From Panax quinquefolius (lineage: Eukaryota; Streptophyta; Magnoliopsida; Apiales; Araliaceae), in contig CM035170.1 of assembly GCA_020205615.1 (NCBI GenBank), positions 9,852,311 to 9,916,310 on the forward strand: a stretch of 64,000 nt of DNA, given 5' to 3'. The translations under genes and the position numbers were made by a program. Each line of letters begins with the position of its first letter. Within the stretch, counting starts at the first letter, position 1. The notes under the pieces are model-generated. The model was not told the DNA's origin. It searched no databases and saw nothing but the letters and a program-made list of their open reading frames with translations. Positions 9,241 through 57,101 of the stretch are shown piece by piece.

Positions 9241-9241
9241 T

Positions 9242-11594: not shown

Positions 11595-11595
11595 G

Positions 11596-16975: not shown

Positions 16976-16998
16976 GGCGGTGCTAAGCTAGAAATCTT

Positions 16999-17008
16999 CT
17001 ATAAATAG
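16999..17008 (+). promoter_or_regulatory. TATA box of LTR promoter
   Basis: CTATAAATAG is followed at roughly 30 bp by TTCATT and then a GAGAGA-rich leader. Equivalent motifs (CCTATAAATAA) lie at 47053 and 53045 in the other two LTRs. Confidence 0.7.
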
Positions 17009-17254
17009 AGGCCTAGTGCTTCATTATTTTCACGAATTCATTCAAGCTATAGAGAGAGAAAGTATAGAGAGAATAAGAGAGAAAGAAGAAGAGTATTTTG
17101 TTACTACACTACTGCAGATTCAATCTCCTACTAAAAGTAAGGGTGTTATTCTTTCTTATTTATGAAGAGAACTGTTGTTATTCCATTGCTTATTATTCTG
17201 TGGAATAACTTTGTGTCGTGGTTTACCCTATACTTGTTGACATTCTTCTATTAT

Positions 17255-33851: not shown

Positions 33852-34379
33852 TATAATTTTCTATTTTCTTCATACAACTACTAAGAACATAACTTACAAG
33901 TTACAACCCATAGATAAAAAGCCCAACAAAGACTGGGCTTAGTTAGAAATGGTAAACAAATTTCTTAGGCTAGTAAACACCAAAAATCATCTACTGTTTT
34001 CGAAAAGAGTTATATTATGTAGGCTGAAAAAATCCAAAACACATCGTAATTAATTGCAAATTTAAGATATTTATCACTGTATTTGACTCGGCACATATTT
34101 CGGTATTTTGTTACGAGTTACGAATTATTTTTAGTTTAAATATAAATTATTATTTTGAACTCTTCACATTTTTTTTATTTTGATGGTCGTTCTGTAAATT
34201 TTTTCAATTAGATATTTTAATTTTTAATTAGGAACAATTACATATTATAGTACATTTTTAAAAGTAATTACAAAAATCATACATTCATAAAATAATTACA
34301 AAAATATGACACTTCATCATTTTTATTTTCAATAAGGGATTAATATTAATGGGCTGACATAGTAAATTAGTTTACATCT

Positions 34380-34660
34380 TCATTCGGCCTCTCTATCTCT
34401 CTCCCCCCTTACTATTTCTCTCTCTTCTCCCTTACTACTTCTCTTTCTCCTCTCGAAGTCACTCGTCGTCGTCCTCTTCCGCCGCCGTCGCAACACCATA
34501 GACTATCAACTCTGACAGAAAATTGAATACGTGACTTTCAGGCTATGTTTTCAAGCTAATACGTGACTTTCTCTTTCCAACTCTGACAGTCGAATACGTG
34601 ACTTTCTCTCTCCAACTCTCTCACAACTGAAAGGATTCTGATTTCTCTCTCTAAGGTCTG
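34380..34660 (+). other. CT-rich leader-like sequence in the Mutator-like element
   Basis: Pyrimidine-rich (CTCTCT, CTTCTC) with a GC patch CGTCGTCGTCC-TCTTCCGCC and two copies of AATACGTGACTTTC (about 34526 and 34592). It resembles a 5' untranslated region ahead of the exons starting at 34787. Confidence 0.4.
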
Positions 34661-34786
34661 CTTCTAATTTCTGTTAATTCTCATTCTACTAATTAAGTGT
34701 CAATATGATCATATATATACGCTATGTTTCTAACAGAATGGGGTATTGATTGTTTGGATTTGTGTTGTTTTTATGTTTTGTATAGA

Positions 34787-36186
34787 ATGGTTGATATAAG
34801 GAAGAAGGATGGAAAGAGGAAAAGAATCATAGAGGGTGATTCTATTAAGGACTTGAAGAAATTTGTTTGGGTTTGTGCAGTTGGATTCTGATTTTGATGT
34901 TCCTGTAGTCAAGACAGAAGCTCAAGTTCATAGCCAGAAGATATTTCCAACCCAAAAAATTTTAAAGGTGTGCTAATTTAAATTTTATTATTGTTACTAT
35001 CTTATAACTATTTGGTTACTTCTGCATTATGTTTTGGTTACTGTTAGATTGTGATTCGGATACCATTTTTGTTACCATGATTTGGTATTTTGGTTACTTT
35101 TTATATTGTTATGGTTACCATGTATTTGCTTAGTATACATGGTTGACTTAACTGGTTTTGATGTACATGTTTATGTATTGGTTACCATTAAAACATGTTT
35201 TGATTACTATCATATAAATATTTGGTTACTTCTTTAGTATGTTTTTGGTTATTGTTAGTTTTTAATTTGGATTCTATTTTTGTTTCCTTGAGTTGGGATT
35301 TTGGTTACTATTTTTTGTTGTTCTGGTTACCATGTATTTGCTTAGTATATATGGGTTGACTAAACTGTGTTTGGTCTATATGTTGTTTATGTATTGGTTA
35401 CCATTAATATATATTTTGGTTACTAACATATAACTGTTTGGTTACTTTATTAGTATATTTTTTGTAGTTGTTGGCTTATGATTTGGATACCATTTTTTTT
35501 CCCTCAATTGAGATTTTGGTTACTTTTATATGTTATTTTGGTTCCAATGTATTTGCTTAGTATACATTGGTTGACTAAACTGAGTTTGGTATACATGTTG
35601 TTTATGTGTTGGTTACCATTAAAACATGGTTTGGTTACTATCATATAATTGTTTGGTTACTTCTTTAGTATATTTTTTGGTACACATTTTTGTTTTGGTG
35701 ACCTTTAAATTATGTTTTGGTTAATATTATATATAATTGTTTGTTTACTACATAAAATGGTCTGTACTACATGTTATTTATATTTTGGTCACTATTAGAT
35801 TATATAATATAACTTTTTGGTTACTGCTTTATTATGGTATGGTTAATGTTATATTATGATATGTTAACTATTATTGTGCAGTCAATGTGGGATGTTGGTT
35901 ATTTGTTATACTCTGTTTTGGCTACTGTGTAATTGTTATATTATGTTTTGATTAGTATGCTTTTATTTGTTGGTCACTACGTAACTGTTTATGTTATAAA
36001 TATTGTTTATATTTGGTTACTAATGACTGTGTAAATCTGATTATGTTTATTTGCAGTTATGAGATCTTTATTATGAGGAATGCAACAGAAAATTCACTAG
36101 AATTAAAAGTTATATATTGGTGTGACATGGAAGTCCCCAACATTATTACCAAGAAATTGAACCCAAGTCAGTTGGAGAAGTTTAAG
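34787..36186 (+). pseudogene. Three-exon gene fragment in the Mutator-like element, DUF1985/Ulp1-like
   Basis: Exon A starts with ATG at 34787 (MVDIRKKDGKRKRIIEGDS). Unspliced, it stops at 34889. Exon B follows a CAG acceptor at 34880 and reads LDSDFDVPVVKTEAQVHSQK, ending at a GT donor after 34967. Exon C follows TTGCAG at 36056 and reads YEIFIMRNATENS ... KLNPSQLEKFK, ending at a donor after 36186. The lysine/arginine-rich start and a KL-PSQ-EKFK block resemble DUF1985-type proteins that Mutator-like elements carry with Ulp1 protease domains. No protease domain is seen. The third exon is followed 170 bp later by the copia insertion. The assignment is from memory and moderate at best. Confidence 0.45.
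34985..36050 (+). repeat. GGTTACT-type degenerate repeats, period about 215 bp
   Basis: The phrase TTTGGTTACT(T/A) recurs many times. At a higher level a block containing GTATTGGTTACCATTAA, then TTGGTTACTTCTTTAGTAT, repeats about every 215 bp (near 35014, 35231, 35445, 35655). The array is the intron between exons B and C and forms the left arm of the element's inverted repeat. Related sequence continues at 45600-45950. Confidence 0.82.
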
Positions 36187-36356
36187 GTATCATTAGTTTG
36201 TGGATGTATTATTTTTGTAAATAATAAACCCAAGTCATAATAAACCATGTATTTGCTTAGTATACATTGATGTATTATTTTTGTAAATTCCTTTAAATCT
36301 ATTCTACAATGGTTATGCTCTTCTAGAAAATTCATTGGAAAAGTTATGGTTAAATT

Positions 36357-38235
36357 TGTTAGGTTTGTAATATTCATAACGCAATCAAATTGCATAAAAA
36401 GTGCGGAAGCGTGTAAAATCAGAGTTTAAAATTTTTTACAAACCATATACCCGGATCACCCTTTATGCACAATTATTAATTAAACGAAAAGATAAAGAAT
36501 AAATCATACCCTTGAAGATCGAGCTTCCTCAGGTACAAGTTCACCTCCAAATCCTTTCGCGTTCAATCTTGAATCCACCGGGTTTGGTTCCTTCCTTTGA
36601 TCAACGTTAGCCACCCATGTGTTTGGCCTCTAGAGGTGATCCACCAAGGAAGAAGAAAATTCAAGAAGAAGGGGTATTGGCTCAAACCCTAGTTTTTCCT
36701 ATCTCTATAGAAAAATGGTACTCTCCCAACAAATTGGAATTATTACGTATGTTGAAAAATCAACAACCCATATCACCCATAATAAGACTCCTCTTATTTA
36801 TAGATGTGGGCAACCCACCTTAACAATTAAGGAATTGGATTTTAATTAATTAATTTTTTTAATTAATTAAGCTCCCTAATCTTATTAGGGATAATTAATT
36901 AAACTCCTTTAACTAATTTTCCTTCCTAATCTAATTAGGAATAAATGAGAGTACTTATATTAAATTAATTCCTAAACTCTTTTAGAAATTAAAATAATAA
37001 TAATTGTAATAATATTAATAAGACTCCTCTAATTAATTTATATTTAATATTTCTAAAATATTAAATAATAATATTAAGCTATTTAATTTATTCTATCACC
37101 ATAGATTAAATTAAATATACATAACATATTATTACGATTATGCCATTTACTTCTTAAATAATTATTCTTCCTTTTATGGCGTGACCCTTTTAGGTTCTCC
37201 ATATTAAACCTAATTTGTGAATAAATCAATTAGAACAATTCTAATCTTATTTAAATAAATAAATTAATCAATTAATTTATTTAAATAAATAATATTTATT
37301 CTACATAGGGATAAGTCTCCCTAATGATCAACGACTTTCCGGATAATATAGATTTCAACATTAATCATTAAAGAACCTTTGAGTAAATAGTTACTGCAAT
37401 TTCAATCCTTCCACCATACAATGTCCCAATTAAATATAAGACATGGAATTACTTTGTCAAGTCTTATTTTATTTAATTATATGTATTTCGATCCTTAAAT
37501 GCACAACTCCAAATAATGCAAATTAGAAACTCCTTTCTAATTTCATTCTGCATTAACCAAGGACTCTTTGGTTTGTCATTTATCGAATCACATAGGACAT
37601 TTCTCTTCTTTATTAGAAGTGGTAGATTCTTTATCGATCATACATTATCTCCATGTACAACTTATTATACCCAAACATACCCTTTGATATACCCTAAGGG
37701 TCTTAAGGAATAAGTCAAAGTATAACTCATCATACACAAGATACTATGATGATCTCAAGTCCAAGGATTACTTGTCTTACTATCACTACAGAATTCCTAT
37801 TGACAGTAAATAAAACTCCATTAGGTATTCCTTAGCGAGCCACGTTCGTTGAACTTATTCTCTAATAAGCACCTACATACTTGCTTTAGTGTCTCCACAA
37901 AATGATCATGAGATCAATCATCCTCATCCAATGAAAGCAAGAACGCGTGTACCAATCTATCCGGATTCACTAATCCCCAATTTAGTAATCCAATGATTGG
38001 GAACTATTTTAGTTTTAAGCTTTCTAAGAATTTAGATCTCATTAGAATGATCATCATCATTATTCTAAAAGCATTGCTTAAAACTATGGGTTTATCACAT
38101 ATTATAAAACAAAGATCATGTAGATAATTAAAAGCCTTTAATAAATTAATACTTTTTATTAATAAATGAATAAGATTGTTACAAAGTATATGCTTTATCA
38201 TCAAACATGATTGGCTTGTGTGCATACTACTTTCA
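36357..38235 (-). repeat. 3' LTR of the copia element
   Basis: Nearly identical in most stretches to 43716-45591; the frame at 36617-36823 encodes the same peptide as 43976-44182. Minus-strand ends are TGAAAGTAGTATGCAC and CCTAACA. The visible differences between copies are mostly one- to three-base indels. Confidence 0.93.
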
Positions 38236-38246
38236 ATCTCCCACTT
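38236..38246 (-). other. Polypurine tract of the copia element
   Basis: AAGTGGGAGAT on the minus strand directly precedes the LTR start TGAAAG. This is the usual form in plant copia elements. Confidence 0.85.
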
Positions 38247-38249
38247 GCA

Positions 38250-39260
38250 CTAAAGCCAATCGTCATGATATCTCTAATACTCTTCTTCTCTAAGTGACGA
38301 TTATCCTGCCGTTTGGATAAGCTTTAGTTAATGGATATGTAATGTTGTTCATGAGAGTCCACTATCTCTATAGTGATTTCCCATCTTTCAATGATTCTAA
38401 TAATCAAATGAAAATGCCACAACACATGTTTAGATCCAAGATGAGACTTAGAACTATTCCTAGTTCGTAATGAACTTTTAATCCAAACAATCAACTTGCG
38501 GCTTCATTTATAGCTATATACTTTGTCTTTATCACTAAACCAAAGAACTCTTTTTCTTTGTTTGGAACATTTCAATTCATCGCACCACTTGCTCAAGGTA
38601 ACCTTTACCTTAAAGTGGATTTTTCGTCTTGATCCGTCTGAAAAACTTGAGTCCGCTAAGCCCTCTAGTTTTAATTTAGACCCACCATGAATATGATCAC
38701 ATCCTTAGTGCCGGTCAAGCACTTTAAGATGTTTTTCACAGACTCATAGTGAACTTCTCCATAATATGACTGATCAACATCAGGTCTCGTACATTTCATT
38801 GCATACATGATTGTCACTCATGCGACCTCTCTTTTCAGGAGTCTGTGGGGACTATTAAGAGAGATACACTCCATAGCTCATCGACATGAGACATCTCTTG
38901 GAGTTTGCCATGCTAAACGACTTTAGCATCAAATGAATATACGTTCCTTGGGTTAAGTCGAGCATCCTCTTGTATCTATCTATATAGATTTTATCCCCAA
39001 TTAAGATACTCTTCCCAAACAATTCATGGAGGAATGTTTAGACAACTTTATCTTTTACTCAGATTGTAGCATTGATAAGTTATTCCTCATCCGTAGTATA
39101 TCAACATATAATACTAGAAATTTCACGACGCCCCAATCGACCCTTTTTGTACACACTAGAAGTCTTACCTCATCGAATGTAACTCGGATCATCATCTTCT
39201 ATGATGTGTACCTCATCATCATCATCCATGATGAATCCATACCTCCTAGGTATCTTTGGT
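38250..39260 (-). pseudogene. Copia RT C-terminus and RNase H, broken
   Basis: On the minus strand, high to low coordinate: LVLYVD (about 39100, the YVDD region with a base lost), KRMLDLTQGTYIHLMLK (about 38935-38985), RPDVDQSYYGE (about 38755-38790), LKLEGLADSSF (about 38635-38675), KTKYIAINEAAS (about 38495-38535) and KHVLWHFHLI (about 38400-38440). They follow the order of copia RT thumb and RNase H. Stops and frame changes lie between all blocks, and the DNNGA region is lost. Confidence 0.8.
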
Positions 39261-39329
39261 ACTATTCCGATTTACGATTCAGGTTGTGGTATAATAGGTC
39301 TATCTACAGTTCCTCTTATTTGACTTATA

Positions 39330-39640
39330 GTGTTTTTGTGGTTCTTGAACTTTTCAAGATCTATTATCCTCCCACTAGCCCTTTCAATGATAAACACCTT
39401 TATCTTAGAAGGAAGCGTGTTTCATGATAAACACCTTTTGCTAAGTAGGATTATAGAACATTTACCCTAAACTTACTTTAGGATGTCCCACAAATCTGTA
39501 TTTGTCAAATCTTGTCCTAAGCTTATCCTTTGAAACCGTTTCACATAAGTTGGACAACCTCTTATCTTAATATACTTAAGATTAGGAATCCTCCATGTCC
39601 ATAACTTTTATGGAGTCTTGAAATTTGGATTTTGAGGTTA
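39330..39640 (-). pseudogene. Copia integrase C-terminal fragment
   Basis: The minus strand reads GCPTYVKRFQRDKLRTRFDK, then FVGHPKVSLG (about 39465-39565), then MKHASF and GRIIDLEKF (about 39350-39430). This matches the conserved tail between the copia integrase core and RT. The integrase core upstream (39640-40600) is not recognisable. Confidence 0.72.
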
Positions 39641-40599
39641 CCTTTTTCAGTGATATGCATCGCACCATTTCTAGGACATGATCCTGAGAAGGATATCTTT
39701 GAAATGCTCGGTAAAATCATTTTGGACCGTACCATGTTCAACAAGGTGATTTTTCCTTTCAGATACATCAATCAATTATTATGTATCGAGAGGCATCCAT
39801 TATGAGAAAACCATTTGAGATGATCTAGAAACTTATTGCACAAGTATTCCTTCCTTGATCCGATCAAAGAATCCTAATACTTTGCCAATTTGTTTCACTT
39901 TTGAATTCTTTGAACCTTTCAAATAATTCACACTTGTATTTCAAAGAAATACACACATTCAACTCTTTGAATGATCATCTCCTTTTCTTATACTAGTTTG
40001 TTCGATTTGCAAAATATATTTTCACGTAAGTCAGTGTACAAAATCCATTAAGTAATCTTTCATTTCTATCTGAAACATTATTATTATAAATAGAACAACA
40101 ATTGTTCTTAATTATAATACCAAAGATTTCATTGTCCAACAATAAAATGGAAATAATATTTCTAACAAGAACTGAAATACAATAACAACTTATTGACTTA
40201 ATAGATTTTTCCCATAGGCATTGCTAAACTATAAGTTTCTATGGCTAATGTAGCAACCTTTGCTTCATTTCCCACACATAGGATTACTTATCTTTGTTTA
40301 ACTTTCTACTACCTTGGTCCTTCATAAATCTATATTTATGATAACCAAAGCTCGGTATCCAATACCCAAGTAGAACCTTGACTTAAAGAAAATTTTATTT
40401 CAATCATGAACAAAAAAGCGTATTATGAACCGAAACTTCACTAAGCTTCTTTGGTTAGCCTCTGCAAGATGCTTCTCAGCAGCTTTTTCCAAAGGTGTCG
40501 AGGCTTATTGCGGTGGAAGCAAACTCCTTTGCTATCCATATCGCTTTTTGTTCTTATTATCCTTTGTTTATGCCTTTCTATTTACCTTCTTTGAATCGT

Positions 40600-41180
40600 T
40601 CTTTATTTCGTAAGATCCTTTGGCCCCTACCAAGGTAAGACTTGATCTTTCTTGGTTGAAAGTGACTCTCAACATTTTTCAACATGTTAAGCAAATCAAA
40701 GAAAGGCGATATCTAGCTTGTTCATATGAAAAATTCACAACAATTGTGAAAGGAGTCCGGAGTGAGGGCAAGATCAAATCTTGGCTCAACTCTCCATCCA
40801 CAAAAACCATTGTCCTAATTGATCAATCAAATTGATTATGTTAAGAACTTTTTGTCTGCATCTTATAGTGCCATTGGCCATTCTAGATCGGAAGAGCTCC
40901 TTAGATATCTCGATATCTATCGGTCCCATTTTCCTCACCATCAACTACTTGATGTGCCGGAATATAGTAGGAGCATCCATAGTTTCATCTTGTGGCGAAG
41001 CTCGTTACTCATAGATGCGAGCATGATGCATTGAGCCAATGGTGCATCATCTTGCCACTTTCTAAAAGTAGCAATCTCTTCCTCAGAGGCATTATCTGCA
41101 ACCATTGCAAGGATAGGCGTATTAAGGACATAAGATAGCTTTTCAGCCATGAGAACAATTCTCAAATTCCTTAACCAATC
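40600..41180 (-). pseudogene. Copia gag (UBN2-type) fragment
   Basis: The minus-strand frame at 40941-41165 reads LRIVLMAEKLSYVLNTPI, then FRKWQDDAPLAQCIMLASMS, the N-terminal half of plant copia Gag (UBN2/gag_2 family). Further Gag-like residues continue in other frames to about 40620. Gag forms the particle around element RNA. No zinc knuckle was recognised. Confidence 0.78.
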
Positions 41181-41448
41181 CGAGTAATTCGGTTCGATTA
41201 ATTTAGCATCTAATATGCTTCGCAGTGATAGTAATTTTAGACATTGTATAATTCTGTAAATGAATTTGTATTTAACAATATTTTAACATACATTCTTTTA
41301 TTAATTACCAAAATAATTTAGGTCTTGTTTTAAATTGGTATCTCTCACTATTTTCTTCAAACTATATTACCCTCACTTATATAGTTCTAAGAAAAATCTA
41401 ATTAAAGATTTGCTAGTGAGAATAAGGATCCCATTTCAAATGTATATA

Positions 41449-41756
41449 GCCTTGTGGTGACACAATAAACAAACTATATATAAATAAATAGGTAGACAAC
41501 TTTTGTCAATTACATCAACTATGTAACTCCTTGATTTTGCCTCTTAGATTATTTTGATCAAGTAGTGGCACATCCGAATCAAAATTATCCAAGTTAAGTC
41601 CAGAGCCTAGCACTCCATATATTCAAAAAAGAAAAATATCATCCTTGTGGTGACACAACAAAACAATATTGTTCAATTTTCTTTATAAGCATCAAATGTG
41701 ATAAATTAACATCTTAAATACTTAATACTTGCCTTGTGGTGACACAAAAAAACTCA
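41449..41756 (-). repeat. Three copies of a hairpin motif in the copia leader
   Basis: CCTTGTGGTGACACAA occurs at about 41451, 41643 and 41731. Each has TTGTG and CACAA arms around a four-base loop. They lie between the primer site and gag, in the untranslated leader of the minus-strand transcript. Confidence 0.75.
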
Positions 41757-42469
41757 TATTAAATATTTAATACTCTATTAATTTTATCATGCTAGAAAGC
41801 GACGTTCGATATTCCAAATATCTTTGAACGCTTTAGGACTTAATATAAAATTATGAGGGGTTTTGTTATTAATTTGTCTCATCTTGTTTAAGCGCATTTA
41901 TTGCATATATATATAAAATACGCCATTATATTAATGAACATGCGAAGCATGTTTGCATAATATATAATATATATAGAATAAGCATGCACATATAGAATAC
42001 TATATTCTACCCGGATTGATTATGGACTTTTATTCTAGTTTGGTTCACTAGAGCCACCAAGTGAACCAAAAGGTCAAACCCCTAGGGTGCAAGAAATAAT
42101 ATTTAAATATAACTATTACATTTAAACTCTGCTCCATTACAAAACGGCCTTCAAGCGCTTCTTGTCCCTCGATCTCTAATTCTTCAAAATTAATTCTAAA
42201 TATTCTTATTACAAAACTATTTAAAATAAATAGAAGCCTTGATCGTGATCGAGGGAAATACATAGGAGGGAGATAGAATTTACATTAAGAAAAATTAGAG
42301 AAGACGAGTCTGCAGAATTCCCATTTAATAAAAAACCCATTCATGCATCCAACTAAAATAAAATCCAATCACATTTAATCAATAGTCCATAATCAATCCC
42401 ATTTATTATCATACACATCACCATATGCATCAATAAATAACATTCATCTCATAAATAAATAAAAATATT

Positions 42470-43154
42470 TAATATATATATTGATATCATTTAATGGGCA
42501 AATTTAGTTAGTATAAAATCTAATTTTGAATCAAAATAAACTCCTTTATTTTAATCCAAATTTAAATCAAAATAAAACTATTTTATTTTAATTTATCCTA
42601 TTTTGAATAAAATAAACTATTTTATTTTAATCAAAATCTTTAATCAAAATAAACTCCTTTATTTTAATTAATTATGGAATCCAATTCCATATATATATAT
42701 ATATATAAAAAATCTTTAATTAAAATAAACTCTTTTATTTTAATTAATTATGGAATCAATTCCATGTAAAAAAAAAAATCTTTTATTAAAGGAAACACGG
42801 ATATTCTTTCCTATTCACAAATAAACTCTTTTATTTTGAATAATATGAAATCTTATTTCATAATTAAATAAACTCCTTTATTTAAGGAAACATGGATTCT
42901 CTTTCCTATTCACAAATAAACTCTTTTATTTTTGAATAATATGAAATCTATTTCATATCTAAATAAACTCCTTTATTTAAGGAAAAATATAATCCAATTT
43001 CAACTCCAATTAGTTATCATGGATTCCAATTCCAACTCTAATTAGTTAGCATGAAATTCTAATTTGAAATTAAAATAAACCCTTTTATTTTAAGATTAAA
43101 ATAAACCTTTTATTTTAAAATTAAAATAAACTTTTATTTTAAGATTAAAATAAT

Positions 43155-43186
<32 letters not shown>

Positions 43187-45591: not shown

Positions 45592-45596
45592 AAATT

Positions 45597-46308: not shown

Positions 46309-46313
46309 GTAAC

Positions 46314-48719
46314 TGTGAGACCCCAGATTTTATCAATAAAGATTTAAATTTTGTCAAAATAATTTTTTAATATTATGGTGTGAATTTGAGATAATATTAT
46401 AGTTGTGGGTAGTATTTATAAATTTTGCAAAGTATGCAAGTGGTTATATTATATTCGATTGGTGGGGAATATTCGGTTTAGCGGGAATATTCGTGATAAC
46501 TACTCAATCATTGGTGGACCTCATAATGTAATTATTTTCGGATTGAAAAACGACAAAAATATTTTATTGAAATAACGGTGGAAGTTTTACTGGTGGTTAC
46601 CGTTGAACTACTCGGTAGTAAAAGTACGATAAGAATAAGTGTGTGGTTGCATAGTAGTACACCTGTATTGATTATTGATACTTATGTGAGAAGTCACTCG
46701 GTTTGATTCCATTATCGTTTTATTAATAATATGAATTATTATAATGATAATGACGTTTTGTTTTATTCGTATTATTAACGTAATAAAAGCGAAACATCTT
46801 TTATATAAAATAGAATACTTTATTAAAGTTATTCTATAAATAGAATATATTATATTTTATTATGCATAGTGTTGCATAGTGTTTTTTTGCATAGTGTTTT
46901 GCATAGTATTGCATAGTGTTTGCATAGTAAAATGTTTTTATATAAATAGAATATATTATATTTTATTTAAAATATTTTTCTTTAAATATGGACCGTCGAT
47001 TAAAGTAAATCAATCTGACCGTTCATGGATTAGTTACTATGCATTCCATTTTCCTATAAATAAAGCTCATTCCTTCATTATTTTCTTACTTAATTCATTG
47101 AAACTCTAGAGAGAAAATTATAGAGAGAAGCTATAGAGAAAAAAATAGAAAGAAGAAGAGTATTCTGCTATTTCACTACTTCTATATTCAGCTCTTTTTT
47201 ACGGTGAGGGGTGTTATTCTTTCTTCTTGAAGAGAACTTCATTATTCCATTCATTATTATTCGCTGGAATAACTCCGTAAAAGTGGCATACCCTATACAT
47301 AACTTGTGTACGCTGATATACCCTATACTTGGTGAAATCCTTATGTTATTTCATTGCTTATTATTACTGTTGGAATAACTCAGATACGCCATTTACCTAT
47401 ACTTGGTGACATTCTTCTATTATTCATTTGGAACATCCTGTGCATGTGTTTTACACCTTACACAGTTCCGCTTTTTATTATTCATTGGAACATCCACGTC
47501 ATGTGTTTTACACCGACTGGTTCCGCCTTTATCATTCTGCTGGAATATCCTATCGTGTGTTTTACACCGGATCCGGTTCCATCTTTATTATTCTGTTGGA
47601 ACATCCATGTCGGTGTGAATTTCACCGACTTTGGTTCCGTTATTATTATTCTGTTGGAATAACTTTGTCTATGCTGCATACCGCATGCATGGTGATTTCT
47701 TTTGTTATTTTATTCTTTATTATACCCAGTTGGTTAAAACTTTGACTTCTATACTCCATGAAATTAGTAGAATATCCTTGATATTTGCGTTTCATCCAGT
47801 ATATTTTCATGGAAATATTCTTCTGATCATTATTGAATTTTACTCTACGAAACAGTATCATGTTGACAATTTGGACGTTAATAATTCATGGATTAAATAA
47901 TTCTTGAACTTGTTTTATTGAATTACTATGTCATTGTCATCATCCTCATGTTATATAATGTTATCTTTGGCTTACGTGCATAGATGAACTTAGTATGATT
48001 ATGACCAGGGATCATTCGGTATAATCATGACTTGATATAAATGATGTGACAAAAGTCCTCAGTGGCCTGTAATGCAGTGATGGATAGTTTTTGGTATGAT
48101 TATGACCAGGGGTGATTCGGTATAGTCATGACCATTGATAATTTGATGAAAATCCTTGACCGTAGTACGTGGATGATTAGATGTGGTGGTTTATTATTAA
48201 GTTTTGAGTCTCAATGATAAAAATTGATGAAAACTTTTAAAACCTAAAAGATAGTAGACTTTATTCTCTACTTGACTTTTTTAATGGATTGCTTATTCCA
48301 ACTGCAGCTTAAACCGGTTGTCTATTGTATTTTATCGCTTTAACATCATTTGAAGGCTAATGATAATTTATTCTACGCATTATCTTAGTCATAATATTTC
48401 TTCTTTGGGCTAGTTGAGCTCACCCTTTCTTTCACCGTTCTCTTGAAATGAGAACATAGTAGGACGAGTCGGGAACGGAGTAATGGTCCGGAGGATAGCA
48501 TTAGTAGTCCTCACTATTCGTGAAATAGTGTGATAATAGTTGTAATGAGGACTCCTTTTGAGTTTGTATAATATCTAGTAGACAATATTTGTATTCAAAC
48601 TCACGCTTTATGTCGTATTATTATACCTACGATTATATTAGTAAGTTGTATTTGAATTTATGTACCGTGTAAGTGGCGACCCAAGATGGGTGGCGTATAC
48701 CTAATTTTGGGGCGTCACA
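46314..48719 (+). repeat. 5' LTR of the non-autonomous gypsy element
   Basis: Aligned end to end with 52303-54728. Contains a TATA box (CCTATAAATAA at 47053), a GAGAGA leader, repeated TGCATAGTGTT phrases at 46863-46930 and the ~60-bp unit array at 47360-47660. Differences from its partner cluster at CG and C(A/T)G sites. Confidence 0.93.
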
Positions 48720-48720
48720 G

Positions 48721-48732
48721 TTGGTATCGAGC
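48721..48732 (+). other. Primer-binding site
   Basis: TTGGTATCGAGC, identical to the one at 11596 and again lacking one A relative to TGGTATCAGAGC. Confidence 0.75.
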
Positions 48733-48889
48733 TTAGGGATATAATCCCAGCTAAGATGTGAGAATAGTACTAGGAGGGGAGAGAGCGGGAATTCCTTCGC
48801 TAGTATGACCTACCTAAGTTTATTTGGTATTTGATTGGTCGGTCAGAGTATAGTGATAATATGTTGCATGTTAATTAACCCTTGTTTTG

Positions 48890-49196
48890 TGACAGTGTTT
48901 GTATTTAGATGTTGTTTATAGGGCTCGGTTATTGGAGCGCGATAATGAGTCAGCTCAACCAAAATGTAACGACCAACAACACGATAATAATCATACCGAC
49001 GGTAACGACCATCGGAACAATGATGACCATCGTGGGAGAAATTATCATGCCAAGAATGGTATCCACTTCGGTTGTAATCATGGCCAAGATAATAGAAGTG
49101 GAAATTTCAAGAAGAGAAGGTGATTTAGCTCGATTTTGTCGTGCACCAAAGTCAAGTCCAAATTGGGACGGTGGCACCAAAGGCGGATCTGGATAA
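48890..49196 (+). pseudogene. Gag C-terminal remnant
   Basis: The frame at 48899-49123 starts in the conserved Gag tail (YLDVVYRARLLERDNES) and continues through an asparagine/histidine/aspartate-rich linker ending NFKKRR. A shift then gives GDLARFCRA, the last half of a zinc knuckle. The capsid-forming first two thirds of gag are missing: the primer site is followed by only about 160 bp. Confidence 0.72.
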
Positions 49197-49269
49197 AACA
49201 AAGTCGGTGGTTTTCATGAAGAGCGTTTTCATGACTTCTTAAAAGCAAGTGACTCGAACGAAGTTAGCA

Positions 49270-49585
49270 CGGGTTAGTTAATTATAAATTCTTGCGAAGT
49301 CTATACCTTATAAGATACCGGGTTCTACCCATTATTTTATCTCGCTTTGCTTGCGTTCAACATTTAAATTTGACTCGGAGAAGTTAGACTTTAACTTATT
49401 GGTTGAAACTTCGTTGGGAGAAACCTTCGTTACCTCCACGCTTATTAATCTTGTTGTTTCAAATAAACACTTTCACGTTACATTCGTCGATATTATCTCT
49501 TTGAAAATATTTGCCTTTGATGGTATTTTAGGAATCAATTGGTTAACTACTCATCATTATTTTTCGTAAGGTTGTTAGCTTTTAT
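49270..49585 (+). pseudogene. Protease C-terminal remnant
   Basis: A disturbed DTG region near 49314-49330 is followed by the frame 49351-49569 with VETSLGETFVTSTLINL and ILGINWL, corresponding to the retroviral-type aspartic protease of the complete element at 12971-13335. Not functional, as the active-site region is out of frame. Confidence 0.68.
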
Positions 49586-51120
49586 ATTCATAACCAAACT
49601 ACTAAAGTCAATTATTGTCATATCAAGCCATAAGTAAAGAGCCCCAACCTTTCGTTGTTGACTTCCTTGTGTGGAATGCATCGAAGCGGACTTTACTTCT
49701 AGGCGACATCGTGAATGAAGATGGCAAGTTTATAGGTATCATTGTGAGGTGCTATCTAGGTTAAGGGATAGAAGTCACAGTTGGTATCAATGTGATGTAC
49801 TATCCAAGTTTTGGATGAGAGTAACAGTTTTGAATGATATCATTAATAAATTTCTTGGCGTATTCTTGAAGACTTCCTAGCCTACCCTAGAGCGTGAAAT
49901 CGAATTTTGTATTGACCCCAGTACAAAACCTATTTCTTAAACCCTCAAATATTTCTTCAACTAAAATGAACAGTTTACGTGGTTTATGATGAAAGTCATA
50001 ATAAAAGCATTGGACTAATGAAAATCATGGGTATATGAAGTATTATTAAGTTTTATGATGAGTTATGTTGGTTAGTATGTGAAAACATGAAAGTTTCTTA
50101 GAAATCACAAAGAGTTGAAAATCAGATTTTGGTGAAAAACGTAACATGAAATTCAATTGACCATATCTCCTATTATATTTTGAATTTTTGAATGTGGTCA
50201 AGTCCTAGAGTTAGATCTATGAGTTACCTAACTAATCCAAGTGGAATTACTGGAAAAGGTGTTGTAGATTTTTGTGTGGACTGATTTTAGCAAAGGAGGT
50301 CAAAGCTGTAAATTTCGAAAATGCTACTGCCCAGAAACTTTAAGGGACTGTTTCGGCCACTTAAATTATGAGAAAAATTCTGGCCTTTTGGGACATGAAG
50401 GTATATGGTATAAAGTACCTCCTGTCCAAAAATGAGCTCATTCTGACTTAAAATGAGCAAGTTATGACTATTTCAATATTTAGGTTTTTCCGACGAAAAA
50501 CGCTATAACCAGAGTTCTATAACTCCGATGACCATGAAATTTAAACTAGAAGCTCATGTTAACATGTGTAAGGTCCTGCCAAGATTTGGGAATTTTTGAA
50601 GTTAAACTTGAGGTAGCTAATTTCTTAAGGAATTAATTAGAAATTGATTTTTGAAAAATAGTAAATGAATTTTAAAAATTCCGAGAAAAATATATTTTCA
50701 TTATGGGACTATATTATGCTAAATCCCAGAAAAGAAATATTTTTGGGACTAATTTGGTATTTTTCATGAAAATAGTTTAATTACTGAACATATGAGTTAA
50801 ATATGTTATGTGAAGTAACAAAGTTGAAAATAGGATTTTATGGCTAGAGAATCCTATATAGAATATATGCATATTTTTGATGAGGGATTTGATAATTGGT
50901 GATGATATTTTATGAGTATGGCATTTTTGAATGATTAAATGCATTATATGGTAAAAGCGTAAACAATTGAGATAAATTGTTTATAAATTTAAGAAGTGAT
51001 TAAAATATTATTATAATATTAATGTTATTAGATTATGAGATTATTAAGTGATTGATAACATGGGGATATTCTTGAATCTCGGATAAATTATATTATAAAT
51101 GTTTAATATTTATCCTTTAT
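49586..51120 (+). other. Non-coding interior of the non-autonomous gypsy element
   Basis: At 49825-49930 residues just before RT are still visible (VLNDI, then NKFLGVF and EFCIDP). After a junction near 49945, where SLKYFF-type RNase H residues appear briefly, the remaining 1.1 kb is non-coding. It includes phrases such as AACTCCGATGACCATGAAAT that are common in gypsy LTR or 3' regions. This is an RT-RNase H-integrase deletion with replacement sequence. Confidence 0.55.
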
Positions 51121-51179
51121 CTCATTTGATTGATTCTTTATATCATTATCCTCATGCTTATATTATGTTGAAAGTCATC

Positions 51180-51860
51180 TCGTAACCGTAGTAGTGCATG
51201 GATAATTTGTGGTCGTGATACTAATGAATACACAATTATCTTTGGTAGTAGTGCATGGATAATTTGTGGTCGTGATACTAATGAATACACAATTATCTTT
51301 CGGTAGTAGTGCATGGATAATTTGTGGTCGTGATATTAATGAATACACAATTATCTTTGGTAGTAGTGCATGGATAATTTGTGGTCGTGATACTAATAAA
51401 TACACAATTATCTTTGGTAGTAGTGCATGGATAATTTGTGGTCGTGATACTAATGAATACACAATTATCTTTGGTAGTAGTGCATGGATAATTCGTGGTC
51501 GTGATACTAATGAATACACAATTATCTTTGGTAGTAGTGCATGGATAATTTGTGGTCGTGATACTAATGAATACACAATTATCTTTGGTCGTAGTGCATG
51601 GATAATTCGTGGTCGTGATACTAATGAATACACAATTATCTTTGGTTAGTAGTGCATGGATAATTTGTGGTCGTGATACTTAATGAATACACAATTATCT
51701 TTGGTAGTAGTGCATGGATAATTTGTGGTCGTGATACTAATGAATACACAATTATCTTTGGCAGTAGTGCATGGATAATTTGTGGTCGTGATACTAATGA
51801 ATACACGATTATCTTTGGTCAGTAGTGCATGGATAATTCATGGTCGTGATACTAATGAAT
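51180..51860 (+). repeat. 57-bp tandem array, about 12 copies
   Basis: Unit: TAGTAGTGCATGGATAATTT, GTGGTCGTGATACTAATGAA, TACACAATTATCTTTGG. Most copies are 57 bp and a few have one extra base. The same phrase occurs once in the LTRs (for example 10975-11045 and 18110-18185), so the array is an amplified LTR-derived segment placed upstream of the polypurine tract. Because 57 is divisible by three, open frames of 127-152 codons appear on both strands; they are not genes. Confidence 0.93.
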
Positions 51861-52290
51861 ATCCTCGGCACGTAGTGCGGGGATGATTCGATGATATGGA
51901 TTAATTATTGAATGAGTCTCAAAGAATGAAATATTAATCCATGGATGTGGTAAAAGTCATCTTTGGTAGTAGTGCATTGATAGACTTGGTATGATTATGA
52001 CCACAGATTATTCGGGTATAATCATGGTAGTAATTGAAAACACGAATATCCTTAGCCAAGAAGGTGCATGGATAATTCATGGTTGTGATACTATTAAGTT
52101 TGAGTCTCATGATTATTGGTTTTACTGATTGTATATCTTTGGCACGTAGTGCAAAAGATGAATTGTTAATGAATATCTTTGGTAGGATTGCAAAATGAAT
52201 TTAATGTTTTCAACGATAAAGGTATTCAAGGTATCCTCACCTCTTTATCATATCAGTGTACGCATTCTAATTTCGAGGGCAAAATTCCAT

Positions 52291-52300
52291 AAGGAGGGAG
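52291..52300 (+). other. Polypurine tract of the non-autonomous gypsy element
   Basis: AAGGAGGGAG lies two bases before the LTR start at 52303, preceded by TTCGAGGGCAAAATTCC, the usual end of Tekay coding regions. Confidence 0.85.
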
Positions 52301-52302
52301 AT

Positions 52303-54728
52303 TGTGAGACCCAGATTTTATCAATAAAGATTTAAATTTTGTCAAAATAATTTTTTAATATTATGGTGTGAATTTGAGATAATATTATAGTTGTGGGTAG
52401 TATTTATAAATTTTGCAAAGTATGCAAGTGGTTATATTATATTCGATTGGTCGGGAATATTCGGTTTAGCGAGGGAATATTCGTATAACTACTCAATCAT
52501 TGGTGGACCCCACAATGTAATTATTGTTTGGATTGAGAAAACGACAAAAATATTTTATTGAAATAACGGCGGAAGTTTCTGGTAGTTACTTGTTGAACTA
52601 CTTTCGGTAGTAAAAATACGATAAAGAATAAGTGTGGTTGCATATAGTAGCATTACCTGTATTGATTATTGATGCTTATGTGAGAAGTCACTCGGTTTGA
52701 TTCCATTATTGTCGATTAATAATATGAATTATTATATAGCGATAATGACGTTTTTTTTATTCAGTATTATTAACGTAATAAAAATGAAACATCTTTTATA
52801 TAAAATAGAATACTTTATTAAAGTTATTCTATAAATAGAATATATTATATTTTATTATGCATAGTGTTGCATAGTGTTTTACATAGTATTTTGCATAGTA
52901 TTGCATAGTGTTTGCATAGTAAAATGTTTTTATATAAATAGAATATATTATATTTTATTTAAAATATTTTTCTTTAAATATGGACCGTCGATTAAAGTAA
53001 ATCAATCTGACCGTTCATGGATTAGTTACTATGCATTCCATTTTCCTATAAATAAGCTCATTCCTTCATTATTTTCTTACGAATTCATTGAAACTCTGTA
53101 GAGAGAAATTATAGAGAGAAGCTATAGAGAAAAAAATAGAAAAGAAGAAGAGTATTCTCGCTACTTCACTACTTCTATATTCAGCTTCTTTTACTAGTGA
53201 GGGGTGTTATTCTTTCTTCTTGAAGAGAACTTCATTATTCCATTCATTATTATTCTGTTGGAATAACTTTTGTAAAAGTGGCATACCCTATACATAACTC
53301 GTGTATCATGCCAGATACCCTATACTTGGTGAAATCCTTATGTTATTCCATTGCTTATTATTACATTGGAATAACTTTTATATCATGCCATTTTACCCTA
53401 TACTTGGTGACATTCTTCTATTATTCTGCTGGAACATCCCATGCATGTGTTTTACACCGACCTGGTTCCGCTTTTTATTATTCTCATTGGAACATCACAT
53501 CATGTGTTTACACACCTGACCGGGTTCCGTCTTTATCATTCTGTTGGAATATCCTATCATGTGTTTTTTGCCGGATGCGGTTCCATCTTTATTATTCTCA
53601 TTGGAACATCCTGTGGTGTGAATTTCACCGACCGTGTTCCGTTATTATTATTCTCGTTGGAATAACTCGTCATGTGAAGTAATCGCATGCATGGTGATTT
53701 CTTTTGTTATTTCATTCTTTATTATACCCAAATTGGTTAAAACTTTGACTTCTATACTCCATGAAATTAGTAGAATATCCTTGATATTTGCGTTTCATCC
53801 AAAGATATCTTTTCATGGAAATATTCTTCCGATCATTATTGAATTTTACTCTACGAAAATAAAGATCATGTTGACAATTTGGACGTTAATAATTCATGGA
53901 TTAAATAATTCTTGAACTTGTTTTATTGAATTACTATGTCATTGTCATCATCCTCATGTTATATTATGTTATCTTTGGCTTACGTGCATAGATGAACTTA
54001 GTATGATTATGACCAGGATCATTCGGTATAATCATGACTTGATATAAATGATGTGACAAAAGTCCTCGATGGCTTTTAAATGCGATGATGGATAGTTTTT
54101 GGTATGATTATGACCGGGGTGATTCGGTATAGTCATGACCATTGATAATTTGATGAAAATCCTTGACCGTGGTACGAGGATGATTAGATGTGGTGGTTTA
54201 TTATTAAAATCGAGTCTCGTGATAAAAATTGATGAAAACCTTTTAAAACCTAAAAGATAGTAGACTTTATTCTCTACTTGACTTTTTTAATGGATTGCTT
54301 ATTCAACTGCAGATTAAACCCGTTTATTTATTGTATTTTATCGGTTTAACATCGTTTTGAAGGCTAATGATAATTTATTCTGCATTATCTTAGTCATAAT
54401 ATTTCTTCTTGGGCTAGTTGAGCTCACCCTTTCTTTCACCGTTCTCTTCGTGAAATGAGAACATATTTGGACGAGTCCTGGGAACGGAGTAATGGTCCGA
54501 GAGGATAGCATTAGTAGTCCTCACTATTCGTGAAATAGTGTGATAATAGTTATAATGAGGACTCCTTTTGAGTTTGTATAATATCTAGTAGACAATATTT
54601 GTATTCAAACTCACGCTTTATGTCGTATTGTACACGACGCTTATATTAGTAAGTTGTATTTGAATTTATGTACCGTGTAAGTGGCGACCCAAGATGGGTG
54701 ACGTATACCTAATTTTGGGGGCGTCACA
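52303..54728 (+). repeat. 3' LTR of the non-autonomous gypsy element
   Basis: Partner of 46314-48719. TATA box CCTATAAATAA at 53045; ~60-bp units at 53340-53680; ends GGGGGCGTCACA. Confidence 0.93.
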
Positions 54729-54733
54729 GTAAC

Positions 54734-56600
54734 CAAATAATTAAAAACTTATATCAGAACAATTATCAAGTGCTTAATGTACATGTGAGGGTTTCCATTT
54801 AATTATCTAGCTGATGGATACTTTTAAATTACGTAGTTATAAAAGTTATTTGGAAATGGTCCATGCCAATTGGTAACTAAATATGAATATGGAGGTAACC
54901 ATTTTATTTTAGATGGGTAACCAAATTTACATAAAAATGTTTCAGAATAGTTACTAATTATTCAATGTATATGTTTACTTTATATTGATAACTCGTGATG
55001 GAATCAAAAATTAAAATATTAATCAACATCAATTTTGGTTACTGTACACCATCAAAAATGTTACCAACCATGTGGTTAATGGTTACTAATAGTAAACAAT
55101 TATATATTCCTGTAAACAATTAAATTTGTTGTATTGGTTACTGTGAGTCTCCATTGTCTAACAACTGAATAAACATTGTAAAATAACCAAATCAATATTA
55201 GACAGTAACCAAATTACATAATCTTAGTAACCAGAACATAAACCACGTTTTTACATGCGATTTTGAAGGCCTAAATGATGGAATTTGATCAAAAAACCCT
55301 GCAGTTCACCAGCTAAGCTGGTGACTTTTGTTCGTTGACCCATTTTCAATGAAATTAGGCTCCGAAAACGCCAAAATCCGACACTCCAAACTTGACAAAA
55401 ATTACCAAATTCTCATTGGATCAAATCTTTACATAAATTGACATGTTTGCTCTTCAACCGCATCAGTTTGTTACCACCTAAAGATTAACAGTTGTATGAA
55501 GTTAAGCAATGTAGTCAATAAGTAATCATCAATATAAAACAAACAAGTATAAAACACACTAATATTATACAATAATCATAACAACATTATACAGTAACCA
55601 AATTTAGATTAGACAGTAACCAACATATATCTATTTAGTAACCAAATCAATGTTAGCTAGTAACTAAACTACATGATGTTAATAACCAGAACATAAAACA
55701 CATTTGCACATTCATCTAACAATATAAATAATCAGTATATTGATATTTATTACCAATTAAATTATAACAGTTGTATGTAGGTAACCAATATAGCCAATAA
55801 GTAACCACCATATTAAAACAAACCAAATATAAAACACCGTAACATTATTCAGTAATCATAACAACTTTATACAGTAACCAAATATATTTTAGACTGTAAC
55901 CAACACATATTTATTTAGTAACCACAAGATAACCACATTTTCCATTGCATTTTTATAGTAAAAAACAACCAGTATAATTTGTTTGTTACCAACTAAAGGC
56001 AGACTTTTGTAAGAATGTATCCAATTTGGCTAACAAGTAACCATTAATATAAAAAACATAAGTAGAAGTGTACATTAATATGCTTCAGCAACAAATAATA
56101 CAGTAACCAATTAATCACTGCAGTAATTAAGTTTGCATTAGTCAGTAACAAAGTCAGCATGACTCACTAAATAATATTTTTACAAAGTAACCAAGTCAGC
56201 ATTATAATTTTATACAGTAACCAATTCAGAATTAGTCAATTACCATTATAGTGTTACACAGTAAGCAATTCAGCATTAGTCAGTAACCAATATAATATTA
56301 CATAGTAACCAAGTCAGCATTAGTCAGTAACCAAGTCAGCATTAATTAGTAATATTATGCAGTAACCAAGACAACATTAGTCAGTAACTAAGACAACATT
56401 AGATAGTATAATGTTACACAGTAACCAATACAAAATAATCAGTAACCAAGCCAACAGTAGACAGTAACCAATTTATATAACTTTAGTAACCATAATATTA
56501 AACATGTTTTCAAATACATTTTGCAAGCACAACATTCAGTATTCAAACTTTATGACAATTTTAAGTTCGAAAAACTTAAGAAAGGTAATTAATATAGTAA
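54734..56600 (-). repeat. AGTAACCA-type repeats, right arm of the Mutator-like element
   Basis: More than twenty copies of (C/T)AGTAACCAA are spread across the stretch, densest at 55590-56490, where CAGTAACCAAGTCAGCATTA-like units repeat every 25-45 bp. They are the reverse complement of the repeats at 34985-36050 and 45600-45950. No coding signal. Confidence 0.82.
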
Positions 56601-56774
56601 TTCGTAGTAACCATAGGTATCTATATGCTTATAAATTTTAAACTCACATACCACAAAGATTTGTATCGGGTCGATGTTGATTTTGTATTCAACAATCACC
56701 TGCAGTAATGTTTTTGTTACTTGAACTTGAAGGCGTTGTTGATTTTGTATGCTATTTTCGATCTTACTGATTAA

Positions 56775-56890
56775 ATGGCGACAACGAGTTTCTTCTTCTC
56801 CGATTACGAGTTGCGTCGCGACAGGATGCTTCGTCTTCTCCGATCTCAGAGTCGCGACAGAAGTTTTTGTCTTCTCCGATAGATTTGTCG
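56775..56890 (+). repeat. Three imperfect ~40-bp units near the right end of the Mutator-like element
   Basis: GCGACA(A/G)...TTC(T/G)TCTTCTCCGAT recurs three times (about 56778, 56817 and 56854). This patch has much higher GC than its surroundings and could be a remnant of a captured exon. The open frame over it (56749-56961) is unsupported. Confidence 0.5.
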
Positions 56891-57101
56891 TTGATCTGTT
56901 GTTCCGAATTCAAAGTTGCATGATTTTAGGTGCGGTTAATTGCAAATATGAAAGTCGGTAACTGACGTGTAGGAGTTAATGACACGTGATTTTAGCACGT
57001 ATTATTGTGTAAGTTTTATTTTTGTAATTATGTTGTGTATATTTTATTTTTATAATTACTTTCTAATTGTTGTATATTAGTGTAAAGGACCCTTTTAATT
57101 A

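Follow-up and report, generated by a model that had tools for sequence, protein, structure and literature searches.

Described Systems with Arrays of Repeated Motifs

The arrays reported here most resemble the VANC-bound arrays of Arabidopsis VANDAL elements, but hold a different motif. In the cited parts of the literature, VANDAL21, VANDAL6, and their relatives are Mutator-like elements with weak, degenerate terminal repeats, which bear a short motif in one orientation and at high density in non-coding DNA, and whose tandem repeats vary from copy to copy while evolving in concert (PMC5735166, PMC10398659). The element described below is like them in these respects. VANC21 binds YAGTATTAY, present in introns and in intergenic and terminal non-coding DNA and spread through the formation of tandem repeats, and the targets of VANC6 carry AGTTGTCC/AGTTGTAC (PMC5735166, in the part cited). 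Unlike VANDAL elements, however, the present one holds the motif (C/T)AGTAACCA instead of YAGTATTAY or AGTTGT(C/A)C, yields no VANC gene among 17 of its peptides, retains a recognisable terminal repeat of ~76 bp, and has its motifs in two opposed arrays. Neither YAGTATTAY nor AGTTGTCC/AGTTGTAC occurs on either strand of the 5.2-kb element. The closest systems in concept are the antisilencing systems of eudicots of Sasaki et al. (2022, EMBO J), in which motif sequence, density, and helical periodicity reportedly set specificity.

Some foldback Mutator-like elements also combine target duplications with inverted tandem sub-repeats. As described in the cited portions of their reports, Tm1 from Meloidogyne combines repeats of ~14 bp with 9-bp duplications (PMC3169594), and Tetris from Drosophila virilis has, within its terminal repeats, repeats of ~220 bp, along with 8–10-bp duplications, and shares with the present element the absence of conserved open frames (PMC4079207). 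The same source describes extra transposase sites in the internal repeats of Galileo. Unlike Tm1, Tetris, MuTAnT from Medicago, and FARE from Arabidopsis, as far as the sources consulted describe them, the element studied here has its arrays outside the terminal repeat, and its arms do not align as copies.

Two other groups are related in part. The plant Mutator-like elements with multiple tandem terminal repeats of Ferguson and Jiang 2012 also hold duplicated internal repeats, although according to the cited part of that work it is the terminal repeat that is duplicated (PMC3310237), whereas here the motif goes undetected in the terminal repeat. The short interrupted repeat cassettes (SIRC) of Arabidopsis likewise consist of short direct repeats with diverse spacers, and SIRC-like repeats are common inside mobile elements, including a VANDAL3 member; they are, however, defined by direct repeats, and the part of the source cited describes no opposed array pair (PMC10342631).

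A Mutator-Like Element Nested in an Older Miniature Element

The 64-kb window, that is, the whole stretch of Panax quinquefolius DNA analysed, holds a DNA transposon of 5.2 kb whose ends are Mutator-like. It landed in one arm of an older miniature element, likewise Mutator-like, and two LTR retrotransposons later interrupted it. Removing 36357–45596 and 46314–54733 from 34231–57092, as the original prediction had proposed, restores an element of 5,202 bp from three forward-strand segments (34231–36356, 45597–46313, and 54734–57092). The 9-bp target duplication that had been claimed is found at both ends, as TTTTAATTA at 34222–34230 and 57093–57101, with a chance expectation of ~1.3e-5 at fixed positions and a length within the 8–11 bp of Mutator-like elements. 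The ends had also been described as matching. A terminal inverted repeat is indeed present (34231–34306 on the forward strand, with AATTACAAAAAT present twice, and 57017–57092 on the reverse), with 84.8% identity over its inner 46 bp, but it is imperfect, extends over ~76 bp only, and is poorly matched in its outermost bases, the first seven being largely mismatched. Duplication and terminal repeats together support the Mutator-like class first assigned to the element. No Mutator transposase domain was detected by Pfam in 17 peptides, several of them overlapping, taken from among the element's short open frames.

The enclosing element, overlooked in the original prediction, is a Mutator-like miniature element of ~888 bp spanning 34133–57891. 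It is flanked by the duplication ATTATTTTT at 34124–34132 and 57892–57900, which was located by a scan of ~90 x 100 position pairs and adjoins the outer terminal repeats; 10 bases in fact match, so its length is 9 or 10 bp. Its ends read AGTTTAAATATAAA / GGCTTAAATATAAA, and its arms of ~180–200 bp are 70% identical, the duplication and the paired ends being those of a Mutator-like miniature element. Its left arm, whose first part is 34133–34230 (forward strand), pairs across the junction with 57692–57888, and the remainder of the element (57102–57891, forward strand) comprises the continuation of the left arm to ~57184, the loop, and the intact right arm at 57692–57888. When the flanks are joined without the 5.2-kb element and one duplication copy, the outer arm pairs with its intact partner over 199 columns at 70% (E = 1.2e-17), and the boundaries of the inserted element, including the junction at its duplication, are therefore independently confirmed.

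Both internal insertions had been predicted to carry 5-bp duplications of their own, and each was found with its duplication and a pair of LTRs. Retrotransposon 1 (36357–45591, forward strand) is flanked by AAATT at 36352–36356 and 45592–45596, and its LTRs (36357–38235 and ~43718–45591) differ by 1.8% substitutions (97.3% identity by BLAST). Retrotransposon 2 (46314–54728, forward strand) is flanked by GTAAC at 46309–46313 and 54729–54733, splits a motif at 46308–46313, and holds a retropepsin (RVP_2) remnant at 49288–49566. Its LTRs (46314–48719 and 52303–54728) differ by 5.6% substitutions (92.4% identity by BLAST), and this larger divergence makes it the older of the two.

Two Opposed Arrays of a Short Motif

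The interior of the 5.2-kb element holds two head-to-head arrays of TTTGGTTACT, with motifs most often 22 bp apart, covering about three quarters of its length. Motif orientation flips at 45944–45963, where the sequence reads GGTTAC-TGTTATTG-GTAACC (in full, GGTTACTGTTATTGGTAACC). To the left of this turn, GGTTACT occurs 17 times forward and never in reverse, and to its right, 3 times forward and 23 times in reverse (Fisher p = 2.7e-9 for the strand switch), bearing out the opposed orientation and the turn point of the original prediction. Means of 200 half-wise dinucleotide shuffles range from 0.08 to 0.43, with a largest count of 3. The 41,138 bp of the window outside 34231–57092 contain GGTTACT 0 times forward and once in reverse, and it is absent from both retrotransposon inserts.

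The main block of the left array (35014–36021, forward strand) has a 22-bp spacing, and the array runs on at 45659–45950; a 215-bp higher-order repeat occupies 34986–35677. The right array, on the reverse strand, starts at 45958–46313 and continues at 54734–56612, where AGTAACC is read on the forward strand at a 22/44-bp spacing; the right arm has higher-order repeats of 44–57 bp and 279 bp. The halves had been described as filled with GGTTACT. This overstates their content: on the left the outermost ~780 bp lack GGTTAC altogether, and on the right the outermost ~600 bp hold a single one; motifs are sparse immediately to the right of the turn, and among the 26 right motifs 3 point forward, all of them within 55037–55142. 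Apart from these three, the short motif is densely arrayed and keeps one orientation within each arm, as is characteristic of VANDAL/VANC systems, in DNA regarded as non-coding from its lack of long frames.

An exact two-motif pattern has 8 matches in the window, all inside the 5.2-kb element. Among viral contigs, 14 stretches match it once each, and therefore hold no arrays. The left segment has no match in the plasmid collection searched, and no description of such a motif array was found in the open-access literature searched.

Spacing and Conservation of the Motif

The commonest pair distance is 22 bp in both arms, with 13 pairs each. When every pair of motifs lying up to 150 bp apart is considered, periodicity peaks at 11.25 bp in the left arm and 10.75 bp in the right, maxima reached by 0 of 2000 random placements per arm on equal grids. 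Tandem duplication accounts for much of this ~11-bp periodicity: when the 22-bp spacing is removed and each remaining consecutive spacing is counted once, 511 of 2000 null placements reach the value of the left arm, whose phasing is no longer special, and 17 of 2000 reach that of the right arm, whose phasing still is.

The arrays have a common motif and little common spacer sequence. Among 22-bp units delimited by Tandem Repeats Finder, and hence not chosen by motif, 4 of the 5 rows from the left array include GGTTA, one of them as the full GGTTACT, and all 4 rows from the right array include AGTAACC, while the identity of spacers between arms is 0.398 vs 0.336 for shuffled spacers. In 7 aligned rows of the 215-bp repeat, one of them aligning poorly, mismatches affect 36 of 270 positions in motif cores vs 163 of 960 elsewhere (Fisher p = 0.16), and 41 of 219 shifted placements are kept as well as the cores. 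Recent selection on the cores is therefore not shown by these copies.

Pairing between the Two Arms

The original prediction regarded the element as a foldback element whose termini may have grown and whose transcripts could form a very long double-stranded RNA, and proposed antiparallel similarity between the halves as a check. An excess of such similarity does exist: at E values up to 1, the halves give 97 antiparallel vs 30 parallel matches, covering 1025 vs 419 of 2485 left bases. These matches are nevertheless short and scattered, and the arms do not align as copies. The 25 antiparallel matches listed of the 97 are 17–87 nt in length (the longest, 87 nt, at 70%), they are not colinear, and only the terminal repeat is in register; the best-scoring match within the arrays is 68 nt at 73.5%. 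Beyond the terminal repeat, the next 684 bp on the left and 524 bp on the right have only two 10-bp words in common. For 44 of the 55 motif units, the nearest relative is another unit of the same arm; for 7 it belongs to the opposite arm, and 4 are tied.

The predicted fold of the spliced strand has an energy of -1190.8 kcal/mol, and of its 1660 pairs 700 join bases on opposite sides of the turn, compared with -1031 to -1091 kcal/mol and 337–532 crossing pairs in 12 shuffles. The real sequence thus folds ~13% more strongly than the shuffles, a residual extra pairing that is real and modest. Half alignment, unit clustering, and this comparison together led us to reject a long hairpin or double-stranded RNA as the main reading, and the claim of a very long duplex finds no support. 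Neither do the grown termini: the element lacks the long inverted, sub-repeat-bearing termini of FB elements, which extend to the ends, its own terminal repeat stopping at ~76 bp before unrelated subterminal regions, and its arms show no colinear pairing. The proposal that the motifs are transposase sites copied from the terminal repeat was likewise discarded, the best motif-matrix score in the terminal repeats being -0.69, against a mean of -1.71 and a 95% point of 4.58 for 80-bp windows, no signal above ordinary DNA.

Exon-Like Stretches in the Left Half

Two exon-like stretches, read by eye as putatively coding, lie on either side of the left main block. The one at 34787–34967 (forward strand) holds an ATG and one frame break before AAAG|GTGTGC, and that at 36057–36186 (forward strand) is flanked by TTTGCAG and GTATCA. 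We initially presumed the latter to be the start of a DUF1985 protein, and hence a remnant of a VANC/Ulp1 gene. Pfam gives no match above cut-off to DUF1985, DUF287, or Ulp1 in the same 17 peptides, so that a VANC gene (DUF1985/DUF287, sometimes with Ulp1) is not found in that set, and two protein searches, against a database including plant proteins, return no homologues of the exon-like pieces. With this candidate rejected, 36057–36186 is therefore termed exon-like only. The 94-residue frame around it matches DUF7641 weakly and below cut-off (residues 10–88, E = 0.0031, 18.2 bits vs a cut-off of 27), and the remaining Pfam matches of the submitted peptides, at E of at least 0.04, are also below cut-off.

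Possible Origin and Role of the Arrays

In appearance, the opposed arrays are closer to rows of protein landing sites than to a long hairpin, and we infer this function from their layout and from the VANDAL precedent. The preferred reading, to which we give a probability of roughly 0.4, is that of a non-autonomous Mutator-like element whose arrays would be binding-site rows left from a gene-bearing ancestor and bound by the anti-silencing protein of a related autonomous copy. The rows would have lain in the non-coding DNA of two genes that once read inwards, and an internal deletion may have taken most of the coding sequence and set the two arrays head to head. The protein of the autonomous copy would bind them cooperatively, typically at one site per second helical turn, and would keep the element unsilenced as VANC does on VANDAL elements, rather than acting through folding into long double-stranded RNA. 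A further reading, which we consider unlikely, is that most of this non-autonomous element, which has terminal inverted repeats, consists of two opposed landing arrays of regular pitch, and that the protein landing on them is an anti-silencing factor not yet described and recognising a motif of its own, (C/T)AGTAACCA. The VANC strategy would then extend to a new motif and to a gene-less element that has kept its landing strips and is held unsilenced in trans by an autonomous partner.

A neutral origin is possible, if doubtful. A dead Mutator-like element may have had a short AT-rich unit in its non-coding interior multiplied by slippage and unequal crossing-over; the motif would have no binding partner, and an inversion or deletion would have produced the head-to-head layout. 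The higher-order repeats particular to each arm are those expected of local amplification, and both the lack of significantly better conservation of cores than of spacers among the 215-bp copies and the loss of significance of left-arm phasing once repeated spacings are collapsed agree with it. Such growth fits poorly, however, with two arms that share their core and its 22-bp pitch although the rest has diverged, and with the single GGTTACT in the window outside the element. A distinctly less probable origin is that of a foldback Mutator-like element, with arrays belonging to long composite terminal repeats that grew by unit addition, the added units possibly serving as further transposase sites, which is what has been proposed for Galileo and Tetris. 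The inverted layout, the 9-bp duplication, the tandem sub-repeats, and the excess of antiparallel similarity would suit it, and Tetris, Galileo, and Tm1 provide precedents; the early end of the terminal repeat, the unrelated several hundred bases that follow it, its ordinary motif-matrix score, and the clustering of units by arm argue against it.

We consider it very unlikely that the element feeds silencing through read-through transcripts folded across the turn and diced. The silencing of autonomous elements is often induced by nonautonomous copies, according to the part of the source cited (PMC10398659), and the predicted fold and its crossing pairs exceed those of all 12 shuffles. The pairing is nevertheless short and scattered, with 46 bp at 85% in the terminal repeat, and each half is now interrupted by a retrotransposon, of 9.2 kb in one and 8.4 kb in the other. 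The motif might also be a site for a host factor, and not for a protein of the element, recruited to drive or repress the element, GTTAC/GGTTAA-type trihelix boxes being one candidate. The sites are short, dense, oriented, and regularly pitched, but a constant orientation over dozens of sites would be unusual for an enhancer. This is the most improbable of the explanations.

If the arrays were neutral minisatellites, they would warn against a foldback or small-RNA reading of inverted transposon arrays made without an arm-alignment check. If they are instead anti-silencing landing sites, as in the preferred reading, the motif could be used across plant genomes to find the autonomous partner and its protein, and the arrays would offer a ready probe for testing the part that motif, density, and spacing play in setting the target.

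Structure of the three-level nest

The 5.2-kb element at 34231–57092 is a Mutator-like transposon within a three-level nest, and carries two opposed arrays of the GGTTACT motif with a 22-bp pitch. Its coordinates in the original prediction are correct, as TTTTAATTA is found on both sides of 34231–57092, and the two internal insertions proposed there are upheld by paired LTRs and by a separate 5-bp duplication for each retrotransposon: AAATT for retrotransposon 1 (36357–45591) and GTAAC for retrotransposon 2 (46314–54728). Once both are removed, the element measures 5,202 bp, with a terminal inverted repeat of ~76 bp. Its ends, previously described as matching, do so over the inner 46 bp (84.8% identical), but the outermost bases match poorly. 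This terminal inverted repeat and the 9-bp duplication are consistent with Mutator-like elements.

Retrotransposon 2 is older than retrotransposon 1, because its LTRs show a higher substitution divergence (5.6%, 134/2379, versus 1.8%, 34/1867). At a rate of 1.3e-8 substitutions per site per year, retrotransposons 1 and 2 would be ~0.7 and ~2.3 million years old, respectively, and at 7e-9 ~1.3 and ~4.2 million years old. The 5.2-kb element predates retrotransposon 2. The latter also contains a tandem 57-bp unit at 51188–51861 (11.8 copies, 96% matching).

The outermost level of the nest, missing from the original prediction, emerges when the flanks are joined with one duplication copy: an inverted repeat then spans the junction of the 5.2-kb element, with joined-flank positions 706–883 pairing with 1587–1391 (70%, 199 columns, E = 1.2e-17). 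With the 5.2-kb element omitted, the aligned arm of this outer element runs on through the insertion site, and the nest accordingly comprises three layers, namely the outer miniature element, the 5.2-kb element, and the two retrotransposons. The outer element (34133–57891) is a Mutator-like miniature element of ~888 bp without the insertion, with ends AGTTTAAATATAAA and GGCTTAAATATAAA. The 5.2-kb element sits within the left arm, and the right arm, having stayed uninterrupted, provides an internal control for the 5.2-kb boundaries. The outer duplication ATTATTTTT (34124–34132 and 57892–57900; 9 bp, with a 10-bp reading possible) came from a scan of ~90 x 100 position pairs, and its position directly abutting the paired ends speaks in its favour.

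Organization of the motif arrays

Left of the turn, where the motif orientation flips, GGTTACT occurs 17 times forward and 0 times in reverse, and right of it 3 times forward and 23 times in reverse. In 200 shuffles, the means were 0.08–0.43 and the maximum was 3, so the distribution reported earlier, with the motif on the left and its reverse complement on the right, is real and exceeds chance. A single copy lies in the 41,138 bp outside 34231–57092, and the search of both retrotransposons found 0. The turn itself stands as predicted, with an abrupt switch (GGTTAC-8 bp-GTAACC) at 45944–45963. Retrotransposon 2 (duplication GTAAC) landed within a motif copy (46308–46313 and 54734), and the insertion site of retrotransposon 1 adjoins a degenerate copy (GGTTAAATT); with n=2 cases, this is possibly due to chance.

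Widening the core to GG(T/C)TA gives 35 left and 34 right units with complete flanks, where the commonest distance between pairs is 22 bp (13 pairs in each arm). For pair distances up to 150 bp, the best period is 11.25 bp in the left arm and 10.75 bp in the right, each matched by 0/2000 random placements tested on the same grid as the observed data; at exactly 11 bp, the matches are 0/2000 (left) and 2/2000 (right). Repeated duplication inflates this pair-distance periodicity. In a collapsed test, where the 22-bp spacing was dropped and all other consecutive spacings of at most 150 bp entered only once, left-arm phasing was unremarkable (511/2000 nulls equally high), and the right arm remained phased (17/2000). 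Thus, both arms show a firm 22-bp pitch, and helical phasing beyond it finds support in the right arm only; left-arm phasing depends on duplication. Within the right array, 55250–55460 lacks the motif and carries the palindrome ACCAGCTAAGCTGGT. Its comparison with the rest of the window gave nothing beyond one 32-base match; it may be an exon remnant or a foreign piece.

Relationship between the arms and the foldback reading

When the left half was aligned locally (E up to 1) to the reverse-complemented right half, 97 matches emerged (1025/2485 left and 881/2717 right bases), against 30 (419 left and 265 right bases) in the parallel orientation used as control. The antiparallel similarity implied by the original prediction is therefore real, but weak, scattered, and short: apart from the in-register 46-bp terminal repeat, the best-scoring match spans 68 nt at 73.5%, and the 25 listed of the 97 are scattered, with lengths of 17–87 nt. 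When 55 motif units were clustered (26 left, 29 right, the 3 right-arm units in forward orientation being excluded), the nearest relative lay only in the same arm for 44, in the other arm for 7, and was tied for 4; with ties resolved, 46 were same-arm, versus at most 40/55 with shuffled arm labels. Spacer identity is 0.464 within the left arm, 0.402 within the right, 0.398 between arms, and 0.336 for shuffled spacers. The left arm has a 215-bp higher-order repeat and the right arm 44–57 bp units with a 279-bp spacing, and the zones that separate each terminal repeat from its array (684 and 524 bp) have two 10-bp words in common and nothing more. Judging from these sequences, both arms were probably amplified separately.

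The element had been read as a foldback whose transcript could form a very long double-stranded RNA. In outline it resembles Tm1 and Tetris, which also have 8–10-bp duplications and inverted tandem sub-repeats (PMC3169594, PMC4079207), with Tetris units of ~220 bp (PMC4079207). However, in Tm1 and Tetris the sub-repeats form part of long terminal repeats, whereas here they lie outside the terminal repeat, in which the array motif was not detected (best score -0.69 versus a null 95% point of 4.58), and the subterminal regions of the two ends differ; two defining features of foldback elements are missing. The spliced strand, inserts out, has a predicted fold of -1190.8 kcal/mol with 700/1660 pairs crossing the turn, against -1031 to -1091 kcal/mol and 337–532 crossing pairs in 12 half-wise shuffles. 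The extra complementarity in this prediction is real, yet it yields no continuous long duplex, which is even less likely now because 9.2- and 8.4-kb retrotransposons sit within the halves. The foldback and double-stranded RNA reading is therefore mostly wrong.

Other features of the window

The window appears to be plant nuclear DNA. A plant RRM protein gene at 62777–64000 runs off its end (63503–64000 by protein search, 62777–63022 by eye); for frame 63503–64000, the named matches are all plant among the best 37 of 120 listed (394 total), and animal Musashi proteins rank after these. Direct repeats of 3.8 kb (5461–9240 and 18741–22502, 94% identical) enclose ~9.5 kb that include a zinc knuckle of retrotransposon type at 12712–13002 and stretches 73–85% identical to retrotransposon 2; 5461–22502 may be a single LTR retrotransposon of very large size, or a duplication. 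A tandem 167-bp repeat at 1725–3444 (10.3 copies, 86% matching) is GC-rich relative to the window, and minus-strand frames of up to 92 codons are open across its repeated stretches. The broken minus-strand frames at 58452–59800 look by eye like a decayed LINE; 59127–59447 has a weak RVT_1 match (E = 6.3e-4, under the curated cut-off), and the domain search of 58452–58862 gave none.

Arrays as putative landing sites

Oriented, evenly spaced short words in the non-coding DNA of a Mutator-like element have a well-tested precedent in the target arrays of VANC, the anti-silencing proteins of Arabidopsis VANDAL elements, where motif density matters and tandem repeat formation spreads the motifs (PMC5735166). 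Further accounts describe VANDAL terminal repeats as degenerate and RdDM as acting on the same non-coding DNA (PMC10398659), as well as VANC genes that have captured a Ulp1 domain in some Vandal elements, similar Ulp1-bearing Mutator-like elements in grapevine, melon, and rice, and strong conservation of this domain in eudicots (PMC13317346). In the 5.2-kb element, the word reads GGTTACT along inward transcription in both arms, and two exon-like stretches found by eye (34787–34967 and 36057–36186) flank the left main block. The simplest history would be an internal deletion that fused two inward-reading genes whose introns were rich in the motif. Helical periodicity of VANC-type motifs was reportedly described by Sasaki et al. 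in 2022.

Several results speak against the landing-site reading. VANC, Ulp1, and transposase domains were sought in 17 peptides of the element, and known VANC motifs in the element itself, and none was found; searches for homologues of the exon-like pieces gave no match in a database where plant proteins were present. The dependence of left-arm phasing on duplication also counts against it. Within the 215-bp repeats, mismatch is 13.3% (36/270) in motif cores and 17.0% (163/960) at other positions, with no sign of recent selection on the cores (p = 0.16), a result expected equally for a dead copy and a neutral minisatellite. On the basis of this one copy (n=1), from which all statements of family membership and function derive, the element is apparently non-autonomous, and its arrays would represent, as the likeliest though unproven reading, putative landing sites for an element-encoded protein.
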